The notes beneath the pieces are model-generated. The model worked only from the letters and a program-made list of their open reading frames with translations. It did not search any database and was not told the DNA's origin. 37,644 bases of DNA from Betaproteobacteria bacterium (GTDB taxonomy: Bacteria; Pseudomonadota; Gammaproteobacteria; Burkholderiales; SHXO01): NCBI GenBank assembly GCA_009693245.1, contig SHXO01000021.1, positions 1 through 37,644 of the forward strand. The letters run 5' to 3'. The position numbers were made by a program, and so were the translations under genes. This document shows, one piece after another, positions 24,361 to 35,512 of the stretch. How positions within the stretch are numbered: position 1 is the stretch's first letter; the number at the start of each line of letters is the position of its first letter.

Positions 24361-24993
24361 CTACTTCACCGCCGCGTGCTTGAGCGGGTCCTTCACTTCG
24401 CGACGCCGCCCGAATTCCATTAAATCGATCTCCTGCTCATCGAACGCATCTTCGAATGCACGCCAGCCGTTATTTTTGATGAACTCTACTTCGTTTGCGG
24501 TTATGGGAATTACCTGCATGAAACGCACAGGGGGTTTCAGGTCATCGCATACTTCGAACTCGGAAGGCAAATAACCTGGGAAGCTCAAATAGGCGTACTC
24601 GAAACGTGGATCGCCTCCAATGATGATGGGACTCCCGCAAGGATAGATGCAGTGCACGCCGGGTACCGAATGGGACTCGAGGACCATCTCTCCTAGCATC
24701 ACTAATAGGACAGCAAGAATTTTGGAGTCAAAGGACGCATTCGCGCAAATGACGAATTCCATCCGGATTCTTTCATCTCGCCCAGAGATTTCAAGTAAAT
24801 GAGTGGACAAGCCAAAAGTAACCAGGGATTGGTCAGCGGGCTCGGGCTTTCCAGGAAAGCGCAACACGAAAAACTCGCGCGCTGTGCCAGATCCAAGAAC
24901 CAACTTTTGATCTATCGGGCCCAAATACCGTTCTATGTACTGCATCAGAACTTCGCCAACTCGACTCGAAGGGATTCCAGATTCTTCAATCAT
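24361..24993 (-). CDS. Suppressor-of-fused (SUFU) domain protein
   Basis: The protein has 210 residues. The C-terminal half carries features of bacterial SUFU-domain proteins: a strand-rich central region, the block FMQVIPITANEVEFIKNNGWRAFEDAFDE (about residues 158-186), and then an acidic/aromatic end. Bacterial SUFU proteins often act as immunity proteins beside polymorphic toxins, but no toxin gene is adjacent here. The coding sequence and the DNA upstream are visibly more AT-rich than the flanking operons, which suggests acquisition by transfer. An inverted repeat TCAGCT-TT-AGCTGA (24996-25009) lies directly upstream of the ATG and could be a regulatory site. Convergent with the IlvD/Edd gene, with seven bases between the stops. 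Function unknown; the domain call is moderately confident. Confidence 0.7.
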   Translation of the reverse strand: MIEESGIPSSRVGEVLMQYIERYLGPIDQKLVLGSGTAREFFVLRFPGKPEPADQSLVTFGLSTHLLEISGRDERIRMEFVICANASFDSKILAVLLVMLGEMVLESHSVPGVHCIYPCGSPIIIGGDPRFEYAYLSFPGYLPSEFEVCDDLKPPVRFMQVIPITANEVEFIKNNGWRAFEDAFDEQEIDLMEFGRRREVKDPLKHAAVK

Positions 24994-25375: not shown

Positions 25376-26776
25376 TCACGGTCGCGGCGGATTCTCCCCC
25401 CAATACATCGGTGCGCTGGTTTTTCTAGCGCTCATCAGGTCTTCCAGATATTTCGAAGGGGTCATCTCCCAGGCAAACTCCATCAAGCGTTTGGTGAGTT
25501 CCTTGACCTTCTCCGGATTGGCTTCGGCTTGGTCGTTTTCTTCCGAGGGGTCGCCGTGCAGGTAGTAGAGTTCCGTGCGGTTGGGGAAGGTGCCGTGGAC
25601 GATCAACTTCCATAGTCCCGCGACGATGCCGCCGCGAAAATCCTCCATGTTCAGCAGGATCTCCTTGCGCGGGCTGGGGGCGTTCTCCGCGATAACGGGC
25701 CACACGTCTTGGCCATCGATGGATTTCTTCTGCTCCAAGGAAACGCCCGCGATCTTGAGCAAGGTGGGATAGAGGTCGGTGGCGTGTACCGGTTCGATGG
25801 TGGAGCCGGCATTCACGCGCTTAGGCCAGAAGACGATGGCGCCCACGCGCACGGCGCCTTCGTAGTAAGTACCGCGGCCTTGCTTGAAATGGCTGTTGTT
25901 GGAAACATCGAAGCGGGGGTCACCGTCGCCCGCGGGAAATTTCAGTTTCAGCGCGCCTCCGCAATTGGGATGAAACACGACGAGCGTGTTGGCAAACATG
26001 CCGCGTGCGTCCAGGGCATTCATCACTTTTCCGATCTGTTCGTCCACGGCAGTGATCATGGCGGAGTACGCCCGCAACGGTTCTTCGGCAATGGCTTGGT
26101 AGCGATCCAGATATTCCCTTGGCGCTTGGTAGGGGGCCTGTGGCGCGGAGAAGGAAAGATGCATGAATAGCGGCATCCTGGGGTCGTGCTTGCCGATGAA
26201 GTTAATGGCTTCCTTACCGAGCAAGCTGGTGGCGTAACCTGGCTCCTTGATAGGTTTGCCGTTGCGGCGCCAATCGGGGGTGCCGTCACGGGCGGTTTTC
26301 TTGAAGTAGTCCGCCTCGCCCATCAAACTGCCGTAGTGGAAGTCGAAGCCGCGCTCGGTGGGCCAGTACTCGGGTTTTGCGTGGCCCAGATGCCACTTGC
26401 CGATGAGCGCCGTGCGGTAGCCCGCATCCTTGAGGGCTCGCGGCAGAATGCGCTCGTCGCCGGGCAGTCCGTAGGTGCTGAAGGGTTGCGGAGACAAGGT
26501 CTGAAAACCGTAGCGCATGGGATAACGGCCGGTCATGGCCGCCGCGCGTGTTTGTCCAGAAAAGGGCTGGACATAGAATTTTTCCAGCCGGAAGCCGTGT
26601 TGCGCCAGAGTATCGATGTTGGGCGTTTGTATGCTGCCCCCGTGATAGCCAACATCCTTCCACCCTAGATCGTCCATGGTGATGTAGAGAATGTGCGGCT
26701 TGTCTTGAGCTTGCGCGCCATGGCCCGGCGCAAGTAGGGTGCTCAAGACGAGGCACAACGCGATTCGAAACGGCAT
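25376..26776 (-). CDS. Sulfatase-fold protein with degenerate active site (arylsulfatase B-like, probable pseudoenzyme)
   Basis: The protein has 466 residues from the ATG at 26776. A signal peptide (about residues 1-23) is followed by the alkaline-phosphatase/sulfatase fold: ILYITMDDLGW with D35-D36, TALIGKWHLGH with K127/H129, and VHATDLYPTLL. Key positions are changed. The formylglycine motif normally reads C-x-P-x-R; here it is S73-G-Q75-T-R77. The usual S-D-N-G-G metal motif is P-N271-C272-G-G. The usual N-A-P-H is S-A-P-Q213, and the usual G-K-G is G-R301-G. The nucleophile, a metal pair, a His and a Lys are therefore all replaced while the frame stays intact. It may be a non-hydrolytic exported binding protein or an early pseudogene. 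Divergent from a small exported protein, with 84 bases between the starts. Confidence 0.8.
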   Translation of the reverse strand: MPFRIALCLVLSTLLAPGHGAQAQDKPHILYITMDDLGWKDVGYHGGSIQTPNIDTLAQHGFRLEKFYVQPFSGQTRAAAMTGRYPMRYGFQTLSPQPFSTYGLPGDERILPRALKDAGYRTALIGKWHLGHAKPEYWPTERGFDFHYGSLMGEADYFKKTARDGTPDWRRNGKPIKEPGYATSLLGKEAINFIGKHDPRMPLFMHLSFSAPQAPYQAPREYLDRYQAIAEEPLRAYSAMITAVDEQIGKVMNALDARGMFANTLVVFHPNCGGALKLKFPAGDGDPRFDVSNNSHFKQGRGTYYEGAVRVGAIVFWPKRVNAGSTIEPVHATDLYPTLLKIAGVSLEQKKSIDGQDVWPVIAENAPSPRKEILLNMEDFRGGIVAGLWKLIVHGTFPNRTELYYLHGDPSEENDQAEANPEKVKELTKRLMEFAWEMTPSKYLEDLMSARKTSAPMYWGENPPRP

Positions 26777-26860: not shown

Positions 26861-27361
26861 ATGAGACTTTTGTTCGCGGGATTGGGATGGTTGTTTGCCG
26901 GTGCGGCCAGTGCGGCACCGCTGGCGGCCGAGGGTAGATTCGAAATTGTCTATTGTTATGGCGGCGACGTGAAGGTGATCGAGCACTCCAAGGATGTGAT
27001 GGGAGGCGCGGTTTCCAGCAGCGGCCCGGTGCGCAGCATGACGCAAGGGGGCGTGCTCGACCGCTCCGCGTCTTCGTGCCACAGCGCCTTCACCGTGGTG
27101 CAAGGCAAGCTCAACGAGTACGGTTACTGCGAAGTGGTGGATACGGACGGCGACCGCATGTTCTTCGCCTTCACCTCCGATTCACAAGGTGGCAAGTGGA
27201 CGGGATATCCGGGAACGGGTAAGTATCAAAGCTATCTCTGGCAAGCCGACTGGGAGCGCATGGGGCCTTTTCCGAGCGTGGTGCCTGGCACCGTGCAGGG
27301 CTGCAACCGGTCTTGGGGAACCTACAAGCTGTTTAAAGCCACTGAATTTCAGGCGAAGTAG
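26861..27361 (+). CDS. Exported protein of unknown function
   Basis: The protein has 166 residues from the ATG at 26861 (Shine-Dalgarno GAGGG); a TTG 21 bases upstream is a weaker alternative. The N terminus is a signal peptide ending near S-A-A-P. The mature part is small and probably beta-rich, with four cysteines (in VYCYGG, SSCHS, YGYCEV and QGCNRS) that could form two disulfides in the periplasm. Aromatic/Gly-rich segments (WTGYPGTGKYQSYLWQADWE; NRSWGTYKLFKATEF) suggest a compact barrel-like fold. I do not recognise a named family. Divergent from the sulfatase-fold gene, so a shared regulatory region is possible. A long hairpin follows its stop. Confidence 0.65.
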   Translation: MRLLFAGLGWLFAGAASAAPLAAEGRFEIVYCYGGDVKVIEHSKDVMGGAVSSSGPVRSMTQGGVLDRSASSCHSAFTVVQGKLNEYGYCEVVDTDGDRMFFAFTSDSQGGKWTGYPGTGKYQSYLWQADWERMGPFPSVVPGTVQGCNRSWGTYKLFKATEFQAK

Positions 27362-27455: not shown

Positions 27456-29039
27456 ATGTCAGAAGCCGTCTTGAAGAATGTACTTGCCCGTATCGAACGC
27501 CGTCTGCGCCTCATGCGCTACTTGCGTGGCGCGGTGCTCGTCCTATGCGGGGTACTTTTCGCGGGTGTGCTCACGCGCGGCCTAGCACTGGCGGGCAAGG
27601 AAAATCCCGCCCTTTGGGCAATTGTCGTGTTGGTTGGAATTTTGGGCCTGTGCCTATTCGCCGGTTTGCTGCTGAGGGATTTGGTCCAAGGCCGCGATAC
27701 GCTTGGCCGCGCGGCGGCGGTAGCGGACCAGCGTGCGAATCTCAAGGACGAAATCTCGAGCGCCTATTGGTTCATGGGGATCATCGAACCAGGGCCCGCG
27801 ACGTCGTTGTCCGGCTGGATTTCTCACCATGTCGAGAAAGCCACCCGCACGGCGATGAAGCTCGATCCCGCCCATGTAGTTCCGCTTTCCTTGCCGCGCA
27901 GTGCTTGGGCCGCTGGTGGATTGGCGGTGTTGTTTGCCGCGTTATCCGTGGCCGGCCCGTTGGCACCGGCGCCATGGCAATCGTCCGTGAACCCGGCATC
28001 GAGCGCGGCTGATGCGGAAAAAGCAAAAGCCATTCGCGCGTTGCTAGCCAAGGCGGGCGAGGGCGAGGCCGCGCAAAAGCTCGAACAAGCGCTCGCCGCC
28101 CTGGAACGCAAGAACGCCACGGAAGAGGAAAAGCGCAAAGCCTTGGCGGACGCCAAGGAAGCGGTGGATAAGAACAACATGGAAATGAGTTCCATGCGCG
28201 AGGGGCTCATGCAGTTGGCCGAACGCCTGCGCAACACGAAGGAAAAGTCCAGTACGAGCTGGGATAACTCCGAGCGGGCCGATCGCGCCAAGGAGATGCT
28301 CGATCGCATGCTGGGCCAACGCGCCCTCCAGCCGCATTCCGGGGAACTGGATGCGGAGTCGGCCGCGCGCGAAAAGGAACTGGAAAAACTCCTGGACCAG
28401 GCTAGCAAGGCCACAGGCACGGGGGAGGGCCAGCATTTCGAAAGCGCCGCGCCCAAGACAGTGGTGGACAGGCTGGAGCAAATTGCCAAGCAACTCGATG
28501 CCCAGTCCGCCGGTAATGAGGCCATCCGGCAATTGACCCAGATGCAGCAGTTGCAAGTGGCGCAAACTTCCATTCAGTCCGCTGGGCGCTACTCCTCCGC
28601 CCAAACGCAGAATCCGCCTACGGGCACGCCTTCTCCTGATAGCGGCGACACGGCGATGAGCGGTGGCATCATGTTTCGCACGGCGGCCGTGGCCAAGGGC
28701 GACAAGCCCTCCGTCACGCAAGAAGGGAGCAAGTCCGGAGCGGCGGCAGGCGAATCGCAAGCCGGCCCCGTCATCGGTAACAAGGAAACGCCGCTGGCGG
28801 TGAAGCTCAAGAAAGAGGGCATACGCAAGGAAGGCGAAGACGGCGAGACGGGCGCGGAAGGCTGGTATTACGCCGAGAGCCGCGCACAAGCCTCGCAAGT
28901 CGCGCTACAAAATGTGCGCGCCAATACACGGTACACCCAGTCGCAAGCCATGGATCCCGAGCACATCTCCGTGAAGCACCGCCAGGTGGTCAAGGATTAT
29001 TTTTTGAATTTGCATGCCAACGAGGCCAAACCGCAATGA
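27456..29039 (+). CDS. Membrane protein with long coiled coil, first gene of MoxR-VWA module (DUF4175-like)
   Basis: The protein has 527 residues. Two N-terminal transmembrane helices (about residues 24-45 and 52-74) and a third (about 149-168) are followed by a long charged, alanine-rich helical region (about 185-400) likely to form a coiled coil. A Gly/Ser/Pro-rich stretch comes next, then a conserved-looking C terminus, ISVKHRQVVKDYFLNLH. This architecture is typical of the large membrane proteins (annotated DUF4175 or unknown) that accompany MoxR ATPase and DUF58 genes. It probably scaffolds the complex at the inner membrane with the coiled coil in the periplasm. Its stop overlaps the moxR start (ATGA). 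No enzymatic motif is visible, and the family name is tentative. Confidence 0.72.
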   Translation: MSEAVLKNVLARIERRLRLMRYLRGAVLVLCGVLFAGVLTRGLALAGKENPALWAIVVLVGILGLCLFAGLLLRDLVQGRDTLGRAAAVADQRANLKDEISSAYWFMGIIEPGPATSLSGWISHHVEKATRTAMKLDPAHVVPLSLPRSAWAAGGLAVLFAALSVAGPLAPAPWQSSVNPASSAADAEKAKAIRALLAKAGEGEAAQKLEQALAALERKNATEEEKRKALADAKEAVDKNNMEMSSMREGLMQLAERLRNTKEKSSTSWDNSERADRAKEMLDRMLGQRALQPHSGELDAESAAREKELEKLLDQASKATGTGEGQHFESAAPKTVVDRLEQIAKQLDAQSAGNEAIRQLTQMQQLQVAQTSIQSAGRYSSAQTQNPPTGTPSPDSGDTAMSGGIMFRTAAVAKGDKPSVTQEGSKSGAAAGESQAGPVIGNKETPLAVKLKKEGIRKEGEDGETGAEGWYYAESRAQASQVALQNVRANTRYTQSQAMDPEHISVKHRQVVKDYFLNLHANEAKPQ

Positions 29040-30037
29040 TCAGCGTAAGTGAAGTAGAAAAACAGATGGACCTGTTCCGCGCGAATTTTCGTACCGTGTG
29101 CGATGAAATTTCGCGCATCATCGTGGGCAACGAAGACAACATCGTGGGCATCATGACTTGCCTGCTGGCGCGGGGCCACGTGTTGCTCGAAGGTATTCCA
29201 GGCATCGGAAAAACCAAGCTCGTGCAGACCTTGGCGGACGTGTTGCACCTTAAATTCTCCAGGATTCAGTTCACGCCGGATTTAATGCCCAGCGACATCA
29301 TCGGGACCAACATGGTGCACGAGACCGATACCGGAAAGAAGATCATGGAGTTTCAGCGCGGGCCGGTGTTCGCCAATCTCGTGCTCGCGGACGAAATCAA
29401 CCGCGCCACACCCAAGACCCAATCGGCGCTACTGGAAGCGATGCAGGAAAACAGCGTCTCCGCCGCCGGGCAGACCTATCCGCTGGAGCAGCCCTTCTTC
29501 GTGCTCGCCACCATGAACCCATTGGAGATGGAAGGCACCTACCCGCTGCCCGAAGCGCAGTTGGACCGCTTCTTCTTCAAGCTCAAACTCGGTTTCCCTT
29601 CCGTGGATGGCTTGCATCAGATCGTCGATCGCACTACCCAGCAGCAAGAACCGGTGGTGGAGCGGGTGATGGAGCGCGGGCAAATCCTGGAGATGCGCGA
29701 AACCGCGCGTTCCGTGCCCATCGCCAAGCCCGTGCAGGATTACGCCATTCGCTTGACCCTGGGTACGCATCCGGAACACGACGCGGCGCCGGACATGACC
29801 AAGCGCTACGTGCGTTTCGGCTCCAGCCCGCGCGGCACCCAAGCCTTGATACTCGGCGCCAAGGTGCATGCGTTATTGGAAGGCCGCGCGCATGTGGCCT
29901 GCGACGATATTCGCGCGGTTACCCTATCCGCGTTGCGCCATCGCATCCTTCTGAATTTCGAAGCCGAAGCCGAGCGCATCAGCACTGACAACCTCCTCGA
30001 ACACATCTTGGATAAAACGCCGCTGCCAAAGGAGTAA
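29036..30037 (+). CDS. MoxR family AAA+ ATPase
   Basis: This 333-residue AAA+ protein of the MoxR family has Walker A GIPGIGKT (residues 53-60), Walker [22 protein letters not shown] (about 116-136), sensor-1 VLATMNPLE, and the C-terminal lid with [20 protein letters not shown]. MoxR ATPases act as chaperone-like activators and nearly always partner with VWA-domain proteins. Here DUF58 and two VWA proteins follow, and the membrane protein upstream is translationally coupled through ATGA. The substrate of the module is unknown. A small hairpin (AACCG-TAAG-CGGTT) directly follows the stop, without a T-run, so it is unlikely to terminate transcription. Confidence 0.92.
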
Positions 30038-30078: not shown

Positions 30079-30981
30079 GTGGCAGCGCTCGCTCCCGCCA
30101 ATCTCAAGCCTCTTTTCGACGAAGCCTTCTTGCGCAGACTAGAAACGCTGAGCCTGCTCACGCGCCAGCGCGCGCAAGGACATTTGCGCGGCCAACACCG
30201 CTCGAAGCGCACCGGCGCGGGCATGGTGTTCAGCGACTTTCGGCCCTACAGCCCTGGGGACGACACGCGCTACATCGATTGGGGAATATACATGCGGCTC
30301 GACCGCTTGTTGTTGCGCCTGTTCGAGGAAGAGGCCGACTTGCCTATCTACATCTTCGTGGACACCAGCAAGTCCATGGACTTCGGCGCGCCCGCCAAAT
30401 TCGATTACGCGAGAAAACTCGCCGCGGCCCTTGCCCACATCAGCTTGCTCAACCACGACCGCGTGAGTGTCGTGGCCTACGCCCAAGGCATCGTGGATGC
30501 ATTGCCCGCACGGCGCGGGAAGAACCAGACTTGGCGAGTGTTCAAATTTTTGGAGGCCCTGGCGCCCGCCGGGCGGACCAGCTTGGACGCGGCCATACGG
30601 AATTACTTTGGCTCTTCGCGCGCACGCGGATTCGTGGTGCTCATCTCGGATTTTCTCGACGCCGGAGGCCTGGAGGAGCCCTTCGCCATCCTGCGGCGTT
30701 ACCGGCATGACGTGGCGGTGCTGCAAGTCACCGAACCCAACGAAGAGTCCCCGCAGCTGCCCGAGGAAGTGACGTTGGTGGACGCGGAAAGCGAAGTGGC
30801 CACGGAGGTTCACGTGACCCCGGGTTTGCTGGAGGCCTACCGCAAAGCCTTCCTGGAACACTGCGAGGGGATCGAAGCTTTCTGCCGCAAGTACGGGTGG
30901 AGTTACGCGCAAGCCTCCACCGCTGTCAGTTTCGACGACTTGATGCTGAAGTTCTTCCGCGAGCACGGAGTGTTGCGTTGA
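30079..30981 (+). CDS. DUF58 domain-containing protein (VWA-like)
   Basis: The protein has 300 residues with the DUF58 signature F-S-D-F-R-P-Y-S-P-G-D-D-T-R-Y-I-D-W at about residues 51-68. A VWA-like MIDAS motif D95-T-S-K-S-M and the later strand FVVLISDFLDAGG complete the metal site. The first 40 residues are basic. DUF58 proteins regularly pair with MoxR ATPases and are thought to be their adaptors or substrates; this is a cytoplasmic protein without transmembrane helices. The start is GTG with AAGGAA five bases upstream, 41 bases after moxR. A 163-base gap holding an inverted-repeat element separates it from the next gene of the module. Confidence 0.9.
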   Translation: MAALAPANLKPLFDEAFLRRLETLSLLTRQRAQGHLRGQHRSKRTGAGMVFSDFRPYSPGDDTRYIDWGIYMRLDRLLLRLFEEEADLPIYIFVDTSKSMDFGAPAKFDYARKLAAALAHISLLNHDRVSVVAYAQGIVDALPARRGKNQTWRVFKFLEALAPAGRTSLDAAIRNYFGSSRARGFVVLISDFLDAGGLEEPFAILRRYRHDVAVLQVTEPNEESPQLPEEVTLVDAESEVATEVHVTPGLLEAYRKAFLEHCEGIEAFCRKYGWSYAQASTAVSFDDLMLKFFREHGVLR

Positions 30982-31144: not shown

Positions 31145-32938
31145 TTGAACTTCCTAGCCGCAAGTTCGAGCACCGCCTTGGCGCTGCTCGCGGGTGTGGC
31201 GTTGGCCGTGCTGGGCCTTTACCTGCTGCGGCCTTCGGCGCGCCGAATCGGTATTTCCTCCAACGTGATATGGAGTCGCGTGCTGAAGGCCCGCAAGCGC
31301 GATGCGGACCGTTTGCGTTGGTGGATTTCCTTGGCGGTGGCGGCGCTCATCGCGCTCGCCGTTGCGCTGGCTTTTACCCAGCCGGAATGGCGGCTCGTGA
31401 GTGGAGGTGCCAAGCGCTTGCTTGTCGTCGTGGATAACTCCGTATCGCTTGCCACGCGCACCCAGGATGGCAAGACGCGCTGGGATCATGCGGTGAAGTA
31501 TGCTCGCGGCGCCATCGAGCGCGCCGGGGCCGGTAGCCAGTTCATGGTGCTCGATACGTTGCGCCAATCCGGCAGTCCCGCATGGGAGAAGCTTGCCGAG
31601 GCACTCATCCGCTTGGACAAGCTGCGACCCGCCGTGGGGACGGCGAGATTTCCCATGGCCCCTGCATCCCCCGCGGACGGACGTACCTTGGATACATTGT
31701 TCATTGGCGATGGTGTAAGCGCCATCCAGGTACCGAAGGGTTACCGTGTGCATTCGGTTTTTGAGAGTGCCAAGAACTTGGGCATTACGGCCTTCGAAGT
31801 GCGCGCACAACCCGCCGGTGCGCGCAAGCATGCCGCTTATCTGGAAGTGTTCAACGCATCCGCGGGCACGGAGCAAGCGGAACTCACCATCACCGGCGCC
31901 CATGGCCGTCTCATCCGCCAGCATGTGGCGATTCCTGGCAACAGCACAGCTTCCGCCGTGATCGATGTATCGGCTTTTCCGCCTGGGGCCGTGCGGGCTT
32001 CCATGCTCTCGGCATCCGATGCGTACGATGCGGACAACACCGCTTTTTCCTTCGTGCCCGCCAAGAGCGTGATACGAGTTGCGCTTGTCACGCGGGGTAA
32101 CGCCGTCCTGGAACGCGCATTACGTTTGCAACCGCGCCTGCAACTCACGCTGATGTCTTCGCCCAAGTTGAAGGAAGAGGATGGTTTCGACGCGGTGGTT
32201 CTGGATCGCATGGCGCCGGCACTGCCGCTGCCCTTTCCAGCATTGATGATTCGCCCGGAGCGCCCCGCCGGATTGCCTGCGAGCGCGGGAGAGCTGCATG
32301 AAGCCACCATCAACATCTGGGACGAGCACCATCCGGTGATGGAGCATCTGAGCTTGCGCGACGTAGTGGTGGAGCGCGCCATGAAATGGCAGGTGGCGGA
32401 TCTCACCAAGGCGCGTGCCGTCGTGCTGGCAAGCGATGCAGCCAAGGGCCCGCTTATCGTTGCGAGCGCGGGAGACCCGCGTTGGGTCGCCACTACCTTC
32501 GATCTCTCGAATTCGAACTTGCCTTTGCAAGCGGGATTTCCGGTGTTGCTGGCGAACACTCTGCAATGGCTCACGGGAGAGCCCCAGGCACTGGTTCGCT
32601 CGCCCGGCTTGGTGGAAGTTCCCGCACCTGGGGGCCGGGTATTGGGATTGGATGGAAAAGAAATTCCCGTTCGCGCCATGGCGAACGGCATCGCCTTCGA
32701 ATCGCCGGGCGCCGGGTTTTATACGGTGGTGACGGCCGATCGCGTGCTGCGCGTTGCCGTCAATGCATTCAGCGGCGAGATGATCTCGGTTAACCGGTCG
32801 CATTTCGCGCCGCATACGGAGGACTCCCAACAGCCGGCGCCGCGAACCCGTGCCGAACCTTGGGTGCTACTGCTTTTCGTTGCGCTGGCGTTGCTCAGCG
32901 CCGAGTGGATGACCTATCACCGAAGGATTACTGTCTAG
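31145..32938 (+). CDS. BatA-like membrane protein with N-terminal VWA-type MIDAS
   Basis: The protein has 597 residues from a TTG start. Two N-terminal transmembrane helices (about 8-28 and 59-78) surround a basic cytoplasmic loop, as in the BatA/aerotolerance N-terminal domain. A VWA-like domain follows, beginning LLVVVDNSVSLATRT with the MIDAS D97-x-S99-x-S101. A long beta-rich middle part and a C-terminal transmembrane helix (about 572-590) complete it. It is probably an inner-membrane protein with its large domain in the periplasm. It follows the inverted-repeat element by 12 bases and the next gene begins three bases after its stop. The TTG is supported by alignment of the membrane segment rather than by a strong ribosome site. 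Its exact partner and ligand are unknown. Confidence 0.8.
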   Translation: MNFLAASSSTALALLAGVALAVLGLYLLRPSARRIGISSNVIWSRVLKARKRDADRLRWWISLAVAALIALAVALAFTQPEWRLVSGGAKRLLVVVDNSVSLATRTQDGKTRWDHAVKYARGAIERAGAGSQFMVLDTLRQSGSPAWEKLAEALIRLDKLRPAVGTARFPMAPASPADGRTLDTLFIGDGVSAIQVPKGYRVHSVFESAKNLGITAFEVRAQPAGARKHAAYLEVFNASAGTEQAELTITGAHGRLIRQHVAIPGNSTASAVIDVSAFPPGAVRASMLSASDAYDADNTAFSFVPAKSVIRVALVTRGNAVLERALRLQPRLQLTLMSSPKLKEEDGFDAVVLDRMAPALPLPFPALMIRPERPAGLPASAGELHEATINIWDEHHPVMEHLSLRDVVVERAMKWQVADLTKARAVVLASDAAKGPLIVASAGDPRWVATTFDLSNSNLPLQAGFPVLLANTLQWLTGEPQALVRSPGLVEVPAPGGRVLGLDGKEIPVRAMANGIAFESPGAGFYTVVTADRVLRVAVNAFSGEMISVNRSHFAPHTEDSQQPAPRTRAEPWVLLLFVALALLSAEWMTYHRRITV

Positions 32939-32941
32939 CTA

Positions 32942-35512
32942 ATGACGGTACGCTTCGAAGCCGCGTGGGCGGCCGTATTTCTGATTCTGTTGCCGGCGCT
33001 GTGGTACACAAGCGCTCGCAGCCGGACCAACCTGAGTGCCAAGCACCGCTACGTAGCCGCCTGGCTACGCAGCCTCGCGGTGACAGCGGTGGTCATCGCG
33101 CTGGCACAACCCGTGTGGGTAGCCACGACGCGCGAGGTGTCCGTCGTCTACGCCTTGGATGTTTCGCGCAGCATCGCCCTTGACTTCGTGGGTACAGCGT
33201 TAAATTGGATGCAGTCCGCCTCGGGCCGGGCGGCGACCGCGCGCTACGTGGCCTTCGCCGGCAGGCCAAAACTGCTAGGCAACCTCGATGCCCTACGCGA
33301 TGTGGGCGTTACGGACGAGCGCGACGCGGACGATTTGATTTATCAGGGCGCGACCAATATCGAGTTGGCGTTGCAGGAATCGTTGCTGGGTTTTGACGCC
33401 CGCCAGCTAAAGCGCCTGGTATTGCTCAGTGACGGCAACCAAACCGGCGGCGACGTTTGGAGTGCGGTACCACGCTTGAAAGAGGCCGGTGTGCGCGTCT
33501 TCACCATTCCGGCGAAACCGCGGGCTCGCAAAGACGTGTGGGTGGAATCCTTGCAGGCGCCCGATACCTTGCGCCGCGACGAACCCGGCAGCGTGAGCGT
33601 GCGCGTAGTGGCGCAACAGCCCACCGGTGCTCTTGTGTCCATAGAGGCCGGCAATGTAATTCTTGCTTCCCGGGCAGTTGCCTTGCGTGTGGGAATCAAT
33701 AGCGTGAATATGCCTGTGCGCCTTGGCCGCTCCGGCAGCGTGTCATTGACGGCCTCGGTAAAAGCCCAGGACGATGAGATCGCCGCGAACAACCGCGCAC
33801 AACAAAGCGTGTGGGTGGGGCCGCGCGCCAAGATTCTTTACGTGGAAGGCCAGCCCAATGCCAGCCAGTATTTGCGCGATGCTCTCGTGAACCAAGGCAT
33901 TGAAGTGGATACGCGGGCCGCGGAAGATCTGCCTGCGGACGTGGCGAGCCTGGACCGCTACGATGCGGTAATGCTGTCCGACATCCCCATTGCGCATTTG
34001 AGCGAAGAGAAAATGTCGGCGGTGAATACTTACGTGCGAGAACGCGGCGGCGGTCTCTTGTTCGCCGCGGGTGAATCCACCTACGGCGAGAAGGGCTTCG
34101 CGGGCACGCCGCTGGAACGCGCGCTGCCGGTGGATTTCAAGGCACAGGAAAAGCGCAAAGACCTAGCCTTGGCCGTGGTGGTGGATCGTTCCTACAGCAT
34201 GAAAGGCCGCAATATCGAGTTGGCCAAGGCCGCCACCATCGCCGCCCTGGAGATGCTGGAAGAGCAGCACCGCTTCACCGTCATCACGTTCGATTCCCAG
34301 CCCTACGAAACCGTGCCCTTGCAATACGTGCGTAGCCGCAAGAAGGCAGAGGACCTCATCAGCCGCATTCAGGCGAGCGGGCAGACCAATATCTATCCCG
34401 CGCTTCAAATCACCTACCGCGTGTTGGCCAAGTCCGGCGCCAAATCCAAGCACGTAATCCTGCTCTCCGACGGCGATACCGCGCCAGCGGATTTCGAGCG
34501 CTTGCTCAACCGTATGAACAAGGAACAGATCACCGTGTCCACCGTTGCCTTGGGTCTGGGGGCGGATAAGGAGTTGATGGGCAATATCGCCAAGTGGGGC
34601 AAGGGGCGCGCGTACCACGCGCAAACAGCGCAGATGGTGCCCCAGATCTTTGTCGAGGACACGCAAAACGCCGTGCGCGCCAACTTGGTGGAGGAGCCCG
34701 TCCGCGTGTTGGTCAAGCGGCGCATCGAGGCTCTGCGTGGCATCGACTTCAAGGACGCGCCTGCGTTGAAGGGGTTCGCCAGCACACAAGCCAAACCGCT
34801 ATCGGAAGTGTTGCTTACGTCCGAATCGGGCGCCCCCATACTCGCGCGCTGGCATCACGGATTGGGCAAGACGGTGGCTTTTACCTCGGATGTGAAGAAC
34901 CGCTGGGCGGCGGATTGGATCAATTGGAACGGTTACGGAAAGTTCTGGGGCCAGCTCGTGCGCGAGACCATGCGCCGCGAGCTGAACGAAGAACTGCGCT
35001 TCGCCGTGCGGCGGGAAGGCGATGAGGCCATCGTGGAAGTGCATGCCGCGAATCCCGATGGTACTTTTCGCGACCAACTCGCGCCACGAATCCGGGTCCA
35101 CACGCCCGAAGGCGCAAGCAGCGTCGCCGCCATGCGCCAGATCGCGCCCGGTTTTTACCAACTGAAGATGCCTGTGGCCACCTCCACGGCCGCGCCTTTC
35201 CGTTTCGAATTAATGGTCGGCGGAGGCATCAGCGCCCAGTGGGCGGGGGCCACCGGCGCGAGGAGTTTGTACTACCCGTTCTCGGACGAATTGCGTTCGC
35301 TGCCCCCCAACACCGAATTGCTGCGTGCCATCGCGCGGGAAACCGGCGGAAAGTACGCGCCAACGATGGACGAGATCTTCGCGGATTACGGCGAGGTGGG
35401 GCAGATCGAGAAACCTCTATGGCGCTGGTTCGCTCTAGTGGCTTTGGTCTTCTATCTTCTGGATTTGTCAGTGCGCCGCGCACCCATCGTGCGCCGGTGG
35501 TTGGATACTTAG
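32942..35512 (+). CDS. Large membrane protein with VWA - GATase-like - VWA domains
   Basis: The protein has 856 residues. N-terminal transmembrane helices (about 8-22 and 42-60) precede a first VWA domain with MIDAS D73-V-S75-R-S77 and KRLVLLSDGNQTGG. A glutamine-amidotransferase-like domain (about residues 298-395: ILYVEGQPNASQYLRDAL; YDAVMLSDIP; GGGLLFAAG) has no obvious catalytic Cys. A second VWA domain follows with D415-R-S417-Y-S419, SGQTNIYPAL and HVILLSDGDTAP. After a beta-rich part comes a C-terminal transmembrane helix (about 825-845). Two intact MIDAS sites in one chain suggest metal-dependent binding of protein partners in the periplasm. It is the last gene of the MoxR-VWA module. 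No substrate can be named. Confidence 0.85.
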   Translation: MTVRFEAAWAAVFLILLPALWYTSARSRTNLSAKHRYVAAWLRSLAVTAVVIALAQPVWVATTREVSVVYALDVSRSIALDFVGTALNWMQSASGRAATARYVAFAGRPKLLGNLDALRDVGVTDERDADDLIYQGATNIELALQESLLGFDARQLKRLVLLSDGNQTGGDVWSAVPRLKEAGVRVFTIPAKPRARKDVWVESLQAPDTLRRDEPGSVSVRVVAQQPTGALVSIEAGNVILASRAVALRVGINSVNMPVRLGRSGSVSLTASVKAQDDEIAANNRAQQSVWVGPRAKILYVEGQPNASQYLRDALVNQGIEVDTRAAEDLPADVASLDRYDAVMLSDIPIAHLSEEKMSAVNTYVRERGGGLLFAAGESTYGEKGFAGTPLERALPVDFKAQEKRKDLALAVVVDRSYSMKGRNIELAKAATIAALEMLEEQHRFTVITFDSQPYETVPLQYVRSRKKAEDLISRIQASGQTNIYPALQITYRVLAKSGAKSKHVILLSDGDTAPADFERLLNRMNKEQITVSTVALGLGADKELMGNIAKWGKGRAYHAQTAQMVPQIFVEDTQNAVRANLVEEPVRVLVKRRIEALRGIDFKDAPALKGFASTQAKPLSEVLLTSESGAPILARWHHGLGKTVAFTSDVKNRWAADWINWNGYGKFWGQLVRETMRRELNEELRFAVRREGDEAIVEVHAANPDGTFRDQLAPRIRVHTPEGASSVAAMRQIAPGFYQLKMPVATSTAAPFRFELMVGGGISAQWAGATGARSLYYPFSDELRSLPPNTELLRAIARETGGKYAPTMDEIFADYGEVGQIEKPLWRWFALVALVFYLLDLSVRRAPIVRRWLDT

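Follow-up and report, generated by a model that had tools for sequence, protein, structure and literature searches.

A sulfatase-fold putative pseudoenzyme inherited together with a MoxR/vWA operon in Burkholderiales

The stretch of DNA considered here (the window; 37,644 nucleotides, contig SHXO01000021.1 of assembly GCA_009693245.1) comes from a betaproteobacterium of the order Burkholderiales. It encodes a sulfatase-fold protein divergently from an operon with the gene order A527 - MoxR - DUF58 - BatA - vWA/GATase1-like. The relevant features are as follows.

25376 to 26776, minus strand: putative Ser-type pseudosulfatase, 466 aa, with SGQTR at residues 73-77, Q213, N271-C272 and R301
26861 to 27361, plus strand: open frame of 166 aa whose start resembles a signal peptide, lying between the pseudosulfatase and A527
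27456 to 29039, plus strand: A527, 527 aa, with hydrophobic segments, first gene of the divergent operon
29036 to 30037, plus strand: MoxR-type AAA+ ATPase with a Walker A (GIPGIGKT) and a Walker B-like motif
30079 to 30981, plus strand: DUF58 protein with a DxSxS motif
31145 to 32938, plus strand: BatA-like membrane protein (Pfam BatA, 24.6 bits, just below the cut-off of 25.9)
32942 to 35512, plus strand: 856-aa membrane protein with vWA and GATase1-like domains

The 679-base gap that separates the pseudosulfatase from A527 is accounted for by the 166-aa frame inside it. One open frame also intervenes between pseudosulfatase and operon at a paralogous locus of the same genome, L091 (9492-11540, minus strand), where it is 683 aa long and carries RNase_H_2 together with a sub-threshold AAA_18 match. 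The neighbouring genes of the window join a MoxR ATPase to DUF58 and membrane vWA proteins, and both the MoxR motifs and the DxSxS motifs of the vWA proteins are intact. A527 itself has no Pfam match, DUF4175 being weakly matched by two of its 29 relatives, and its structural model is poor (pLDDT 68.9, pTM 0.40). A SUFU-domain protein encoded at 24361-24993 on the minus strand has a GC content of 50%, against about 59% in the window, and was possibly acquired. Anti-phage defence was considered as a function of the locus and set aside: PADLOC models were unmatched by the pseudosulfatase, A527, DUF58, BatA and vWA proteins, and MoxR matched IetA weakly (37 residues, E 2e-4).

The pseudosulfatase frame is open over all 466 codons and its residues 27-345 match the Pfam Sulfatase family (PF00884) with 162.5 bits (E 1.9e-47), which bears out the intact frame and sulfatase fold described in the initial annotation and supplies the strand that it had not given. 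A signal peptide was read by eye; the protein contains no hydrophobic 19-mer above 1.6 and no strong transmembrane segment. The active site was followed through ten residues, which are presumed to be those of arylsulfatase A and whose columns were checked against Cys-type homologues in the alignment. Five of the ten are replaced, namely S73 (for Cys), Q213 (for His), N271 (for Asp), C272 (for Asn) and R301 (for Lys). All of these substitutions had been claimed beforehand and are present; the accompanying statement that every key position was replaced goes too far, however, since D35, D36, R77, K127 and H129 are retained. The calcium ligands, canonically D, D, D and N, read D35, D36, N271 and C272, an incomplete quartet, and among the catalytic Lys, His, His and Lys residues K127 and H129 are kept while Q213 and R301 are altered. 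The maturation motif [CS]-x-P/A-x-R is likewise replaced by S-G-Q-T-R. In the same alignment, all ten residues are intact in each of the five Rhizobiaceae relatives, and they are complete in 20 of the 21 other sulfatases (L043, a fragment, and L044, L045 and L047, distant, being excluded from these), the remaining one, with S-S-P-S-R, having nine. The 39 genes of the window's own clade retain three to seven. Judged from the aligned sequences, this pattern of substitution is not chance, and the window protein has probably lost catalysis.

Structural modelling, one of the checks proposed with the initial annotation, returned a confident sulfatase fold. The AlphaFold model, for which 37 sequences were aligned (five Cys types and 32 of the 39 members of the clade), has a mean pLDDT of 91.1 and a pTM of 0.91. 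Its best structural matches, obtained with VIA-align, are to 6psm (PsS1_19B; Z 50.3 over 411 residues) and 1fsu (human 4-sulfatase, arylsulfatase B; Z 50.2 over 416 residues), both at 34-35% identity.

The window protein belongs to a family of at least 39 such genes in 29 of 399 genomes of its order (E<=1e-90, window included), a lower bound because at most four candidates were scored per genome. In a tree of 49 rows the 39 form a single clade with a support of 100/100, adjoining the canonical Cys-type sulfatases, and the window gene pairs with one from the same genus, in genome G002. The closest relative found for the window protein is 56% identical, and its own genome (3.0 Mb, 97% complete) holds a second pseudosulfatase, 49% identical, with S-S-Q-T-R. 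Serine occupies the formylglycine position in 39/39 members and Arg77 the +4 position in 39/39, with Gln (24), Ser (10) or Pro (5) at +2. The His of NAPH is gone throughout, that of GKWH in 38 of the 39, the window protein being the sole member to have it, and Lys302 and Lys123 are lost in 24 and 21 members, respectively. Metal ligands are better preserved: the second Asp is present in 39/39, Asp281 in 37, Asn282 in 34 and the first Asp in 28 (it is Asn or Gly in the other 11), so that the full DDDN quartet is intact in 25. It had been asked whether a clade shares the S-G-Q-T-R and P-N-C-G-G sequences. The former holds in the general form S-x-[QSP]-x-R in every member; the latter does not, for a change of both Asp and Asn is confined to the window (N-C) and G002 (N-S). 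The clade also has a C-terminal tail (N462 in 39/39, P463 in 37/39) that is absent from the five Rhizobiaceae relatives. A GDGD loop, taken for a clade-specific feature, was dropped because the Rhizobiaceae Cys types carry a related loop.

Wider sampling returned no further Ser-type member, either from 369 genomes of the class (which include a few members of the order) or from 398 genomes of the phylum (some of the order included). Besides the window's own genome these samples gave three and five matches, respectively, at E<=1e-80, all of the Cys type, and the degenerate Ser clade is therefore seen only in five families of one order. One scan of viral contigs gave no relative. A scan of genome contigs gave 30 loci, none of the degenerate clade, with window-specific peptide patterns that would miss most of it, and a plasmid scan returned matches whose motif class, Ser or Cys, was not assigned.

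Purifying selection prevails in the clade. Across 15 close pairs of its genes, which overlap in part, dN/dS lies between 0.07 and 0.40 and is 0.13 or less in ten, with 0.07 in two Cys-type pairs for comparison. Between the window gene and that of G002 the ratio is 0.28 (dN 0.38, dS 1.34), and the same comparison gives about 0.13 for MoxR, about 0.12 for the dehydratase and 0.36 for A527. In the tree of the clade the end branch of the window gene has a length of 0.44 and that of its sister 0.47. The window protein departs from four of 93 near-invariant columns, in a set that includes the window itself, and the metal Asp is among them. By this pairwise form of the dN/dS estimate called for at the outset, the window protein is kept, although its constraint is below that of the most conserved genes beside it.

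The second property that sets the clade in context is its genomic position. An A527-family gene adjoins 37 of the 39 clade genes, divergently in 35 (34 of the 38 fetched loci, and the window) and co-directionally in two (L096, L101), while the remaining two loci (L076, L102) are cut by a contig end on the operon side. MoxR and DUF58 are present in most of the operons beside clade genes. Ten of the pseudosulfatases, including the paralogue in the window's genome, are of a second type and go with type-2 operons; MoxR is not nearby in eight of the nine readable type-2 loci (L093 has it), and the type-2 BatA copy in L091 exceeds the Pfam BatA cut-off. Among the 399 genomes a profile of A527 matches 32, made up of all 29 carriers, as expected of a profile built from their loci, and only three of the 370 others. 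The hypergeometric value for this co-occurrence (5e-41) ignores both relatedness and the circularity of the profile and is not usable as a probability. Pairwise distances of pseudosulfatase and BatA correlate with r 0.936 over the 33 of 39 genes whose locus includes a BatA of more than 400 aa, the largest value among 999 permutations being 0.228; such mirroring is expected of any two co-inherited genes. Most groups of the sulfatase tree, type 2 among them, recur in the BatA tree (39 rows), with the window and G002 unpaired. As the carriers fall into five families of one order, the linkage does not represent many independent events.

Four loci (L112, L113, L114 and L116) have the operon without a pseudosulfatase, and the machine can therefore exist without it. 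In the BatA tree these loci are scattered over four positions, as expected of losses, and completeness is 64-78% for three of the four genomes. At L112 (6482-7911), in the same-genus genome G001, the same dehydratase and operon are found with a GAF/HD-domain gene in the place of the pseudosulfatase. At L114 an FMN-dependent dehydrogenase stands directly opposite A527.

This dehydrogenase (PF01070 in L084) often follows the pseudosulfatase elsewhere, 3' of it and on the same strand, as in L084, L072, L077, L087 and other type-1 loci. The two genes overlap by four bases in L077 and L087. The dehydrogenase gene is fragmented in L085 and L103, and in L105 only a short piece of it is found. Five type-2 loci (L098, L102, L104, L108 and L109) are flanked by a PQQ-dependent dehydrogenase and a cytochrome c gene. 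In the window's genome a broken A527-family piece with one in-frame stop (L115, 7894-8250, minus strand) lies about 4 kb from a PQQ dehydrogenase-like gene.

The genomic complement of sulfatases and of their maturation enzymes was also surveyed. No canonical formylglycine sulfatase was found in the window's genome (97% complete), where the PF00884 matches are two Ser-type genes and two contig-end pieces that by eye belong to an LtaS-like membrane protein. A Ser-type gene is the only PF00884 match (E<=1e-10) in nine of the 29 carrier genomes. Nor did the window's genome yield a formylglycine-generating enzyme (FGE) with its Cys pair, its three PF03781 matches being, by eye, one protein without the pair, one EgtB-like protein and one EgtB N-terminus cut by a contig end. 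The anaerobic maturase (TIGR03942) has no match at E<=1e-5 in this genome; nine of the 29 carriers have some match, those of G119, G157 and G341 reaching about 139 bits against a cut-off of 349, and a single carrier, G002, exceeds the cut-off. An FGE-fold gene lies near 10 of the 38 loci, and the one copy read, in L084, shows no Cys pair. FGE-fold proteins without an evident Cys pair thus occur in pseudosulfatase-carrying genomes both at L007 (the window's genome) and at L084 (11875-12780, minus strand).

The operon, which had not entered the initial annotation, is the strongest clue to the function of the pseudosulfatase. This disarmed version of an enzyme, kept under selection beside the genes of a chaperone-like membrane machine, is probably a part of that machine and not a sulfatase, and the reading favoured here, by a modest preference, is that the exported pseudosulfatase serves as a dedicated non-catalytic partner, either adaptor or ligand sensor, of the MoxR/vWA membrane machine. 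The initial annotation had proposed a pseudoenzyme, and the clade-wide serine and loss of the catalytic His, the mostly purifying selection and the stable linkage to one operon all speak for it. According to this model, an S1-type sulfatase fold related to the Cys-type sulfatases would have lost its sulfatase chemistry. The machine would consist of a DUF4175-like protein, BatA and the vWA/GATase1-like protein, its type-1 version being driven by the MoxR ATPase and DUF58. The pseudosulfatase would be exported and make contact with the membrane proteins in the periplasm, the side on which the vWA domain of BB0173 is reported to lie (PMC5700661). Its former substrate pocket, with Ser, Arg and usually the metal ligands, may bind a ligand without turnover, and a role in envelope upkeep is suggested by analogy with a Rhizobium MoxR operon and with YejM. 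The most likely partner is A527, BatA or the vWA protein, because type-1 and type-2 loci have the genes for these three in common. The vWA protein is a better candidate than BatA, because DxSxS is present in 30 of 31 vWA proteins and in only 13 of 32 BatA proteins (against 24 of 24 for DUF58), which means that BatA may not be a working vWA protein. A bolder version, entertained tentatively, would make the pseudosulfatase a founding component, a recognition module that points the ATPase-driven vWA proteins to an envelope polymer or client, with the sulfatase-less operons as secondary losses.

Two alternatives would deny the protein any such role, and both are very improbable. Early decay, which had been left open, would fit the absence from the window protein of an Asp and an Asn kept by 37 and 34 of the 39 members, the same-genus operon of G001 without a pseudosulfatase gene, and a window-G002 ratio above those of MoxR and the dehydratase. 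Yet the family is old, the frame is intact, 89 of the 93 near-invariant columns are retained, the end branch is no longer than that of its sister, the dN/dS ratio to the same-genus gene is 0.28, and conservation is lower again in A527, which belongs to the same operon. An active formylglycine sulfatase, its Ser converted by an anaerobic maturase, has precedent in that Ser types account for 21.1% of the 4058 sequences in SulfAtlas, although only from facultative or strict anaerobes, and G002 does have a maturase over the cut-off, with sub-threshold matches in three other carriers. In the same source the +2 position is Pro in 87%, with Ala in 369 sequences and other residues in less than 1% each, and nine sequences are called perhaps inactive (PMC5066984). 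Pro stands at +2 in only five of the 39 clade members, the NAPH His is gone from all of them, the window's genome has no maturase match at E<=1e-5, and the one maturase over the cut-off adjoins another PF00884 gene.

The main rival is new chemistry in the members with an intact quartet. It supposes that in most of the clade a phosphatase- or transferase-like centre is formed by an unmodified Ser73 together with the metal and Arg77, comparable to the Thr-based centres of YejM, EptA and LtaS, and that the metal ligands were lost secondarily in the window's genus. The invariance of Ser73, Arg77 and the second Asp, together with the complete quartet in 25 of 39, hints that the pocket still serves some purpose in most members, and YejM itself, initially taken for a non-enzyme, has since been reported as a phosphatase that depends on Mg and has a conserved Thr (PMC7576196). 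Set against this are the universal loss of the NAPH His, the loss of Lys302 in 24 members, the Asn or Gly at the first Asp in 11 and the N-C for D-N of the window, and the re-purposed enzyme is accordingly considered rather unlikely. It is improbable, too, that the pseudosulfatase is a client of the MoxR/vWA machine, which would fold it or load metal into it. MoxR proteins are credited with chaperone-like roles (PMC3893208), and activation of methanol dehydrogenase and of nitric oxide reductase has been ascribed to them; a client would be expected to show the observed linkage to the operon and the joint inheritance, and the PQQ dehydrogenase and cytochrome c genes beside five type-2 loci are in keeping with it. 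A client that receives metal is hard to square with the loss of ligands in the window's genus and their weaker conservation in other members, eight of the nine readable type-2 loci show no MoxR nearby, and four operons persist without the pseudosulfatase gene.

Should the pseudosulfatase be a partner of the machine, as preferred here, it would be of practical use. MoxR/vWA operons are widespread and their targets are mostly unknown, so that a conserved partner of well-understood fold offers a bait for the substrate. Moreover, an arylsulfatase annotation that is based on fold alone can conceal a pseudoenzyme of long standing, with consequences for sulfatase counts in environmental genomes.

Several known systems provide a frame for these proteins. 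The S1 sulfatases, comprising the S1_19 carrageenan sulfatases and arylsulfatase B, resemble the window protein in fold (Z about 50, 34-35% identity) and differ from it in having C/S-x-P/A-x-R, the NAPH His and the D-N metal pair. Closer are the Cys-type sulfatases of Rhizobiaceae and Phyllobacteriaceae (L018-L021, L024), a sister group that is 48-49% identical and shares the loop after SDNGG, but retains all ten active-site residues; the operon proteins were not found in their flanks (about 1 to 6 kb). Two other Cys-type loci, L159 and L162, adjoin an FGE with the Cys pair (GGS[FH]LCAPSYCRRYR).

The operon consists of the same kinds of genes as those described for MoxR proper, for RL3499-RL3502 of Rhizobium leguminosarum and for Bat, where the available parts of the descriptions mention no sulfatase-fold partner, whereas the window operon is linked to a pseudosulfatase. 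RL3499 is reported to matter for the shape of the cell and the integrity of its membrane (cited in PMC3893208). No description of a pseudosulfatase tied to a MoxR operon was found in open PMC papers; the kinds of component are known, and as far as these papers reach their combination is new. YejM (PbgA, LapC), which resides in the inner membrane and has Thr in its active site (PMC7576196), joins a membrane domain to a sulfatase-like periplasmic domain. The window protein lacks this architecture, having no strong transmembrane segment, and scores 14.7 bits (E 0.007) against the YejM model NF038282, for which the cut-off is 825. Nevertheless, YejM provides a precedent for a sulfatase-like fold acting as a sensor (PMC13125744).
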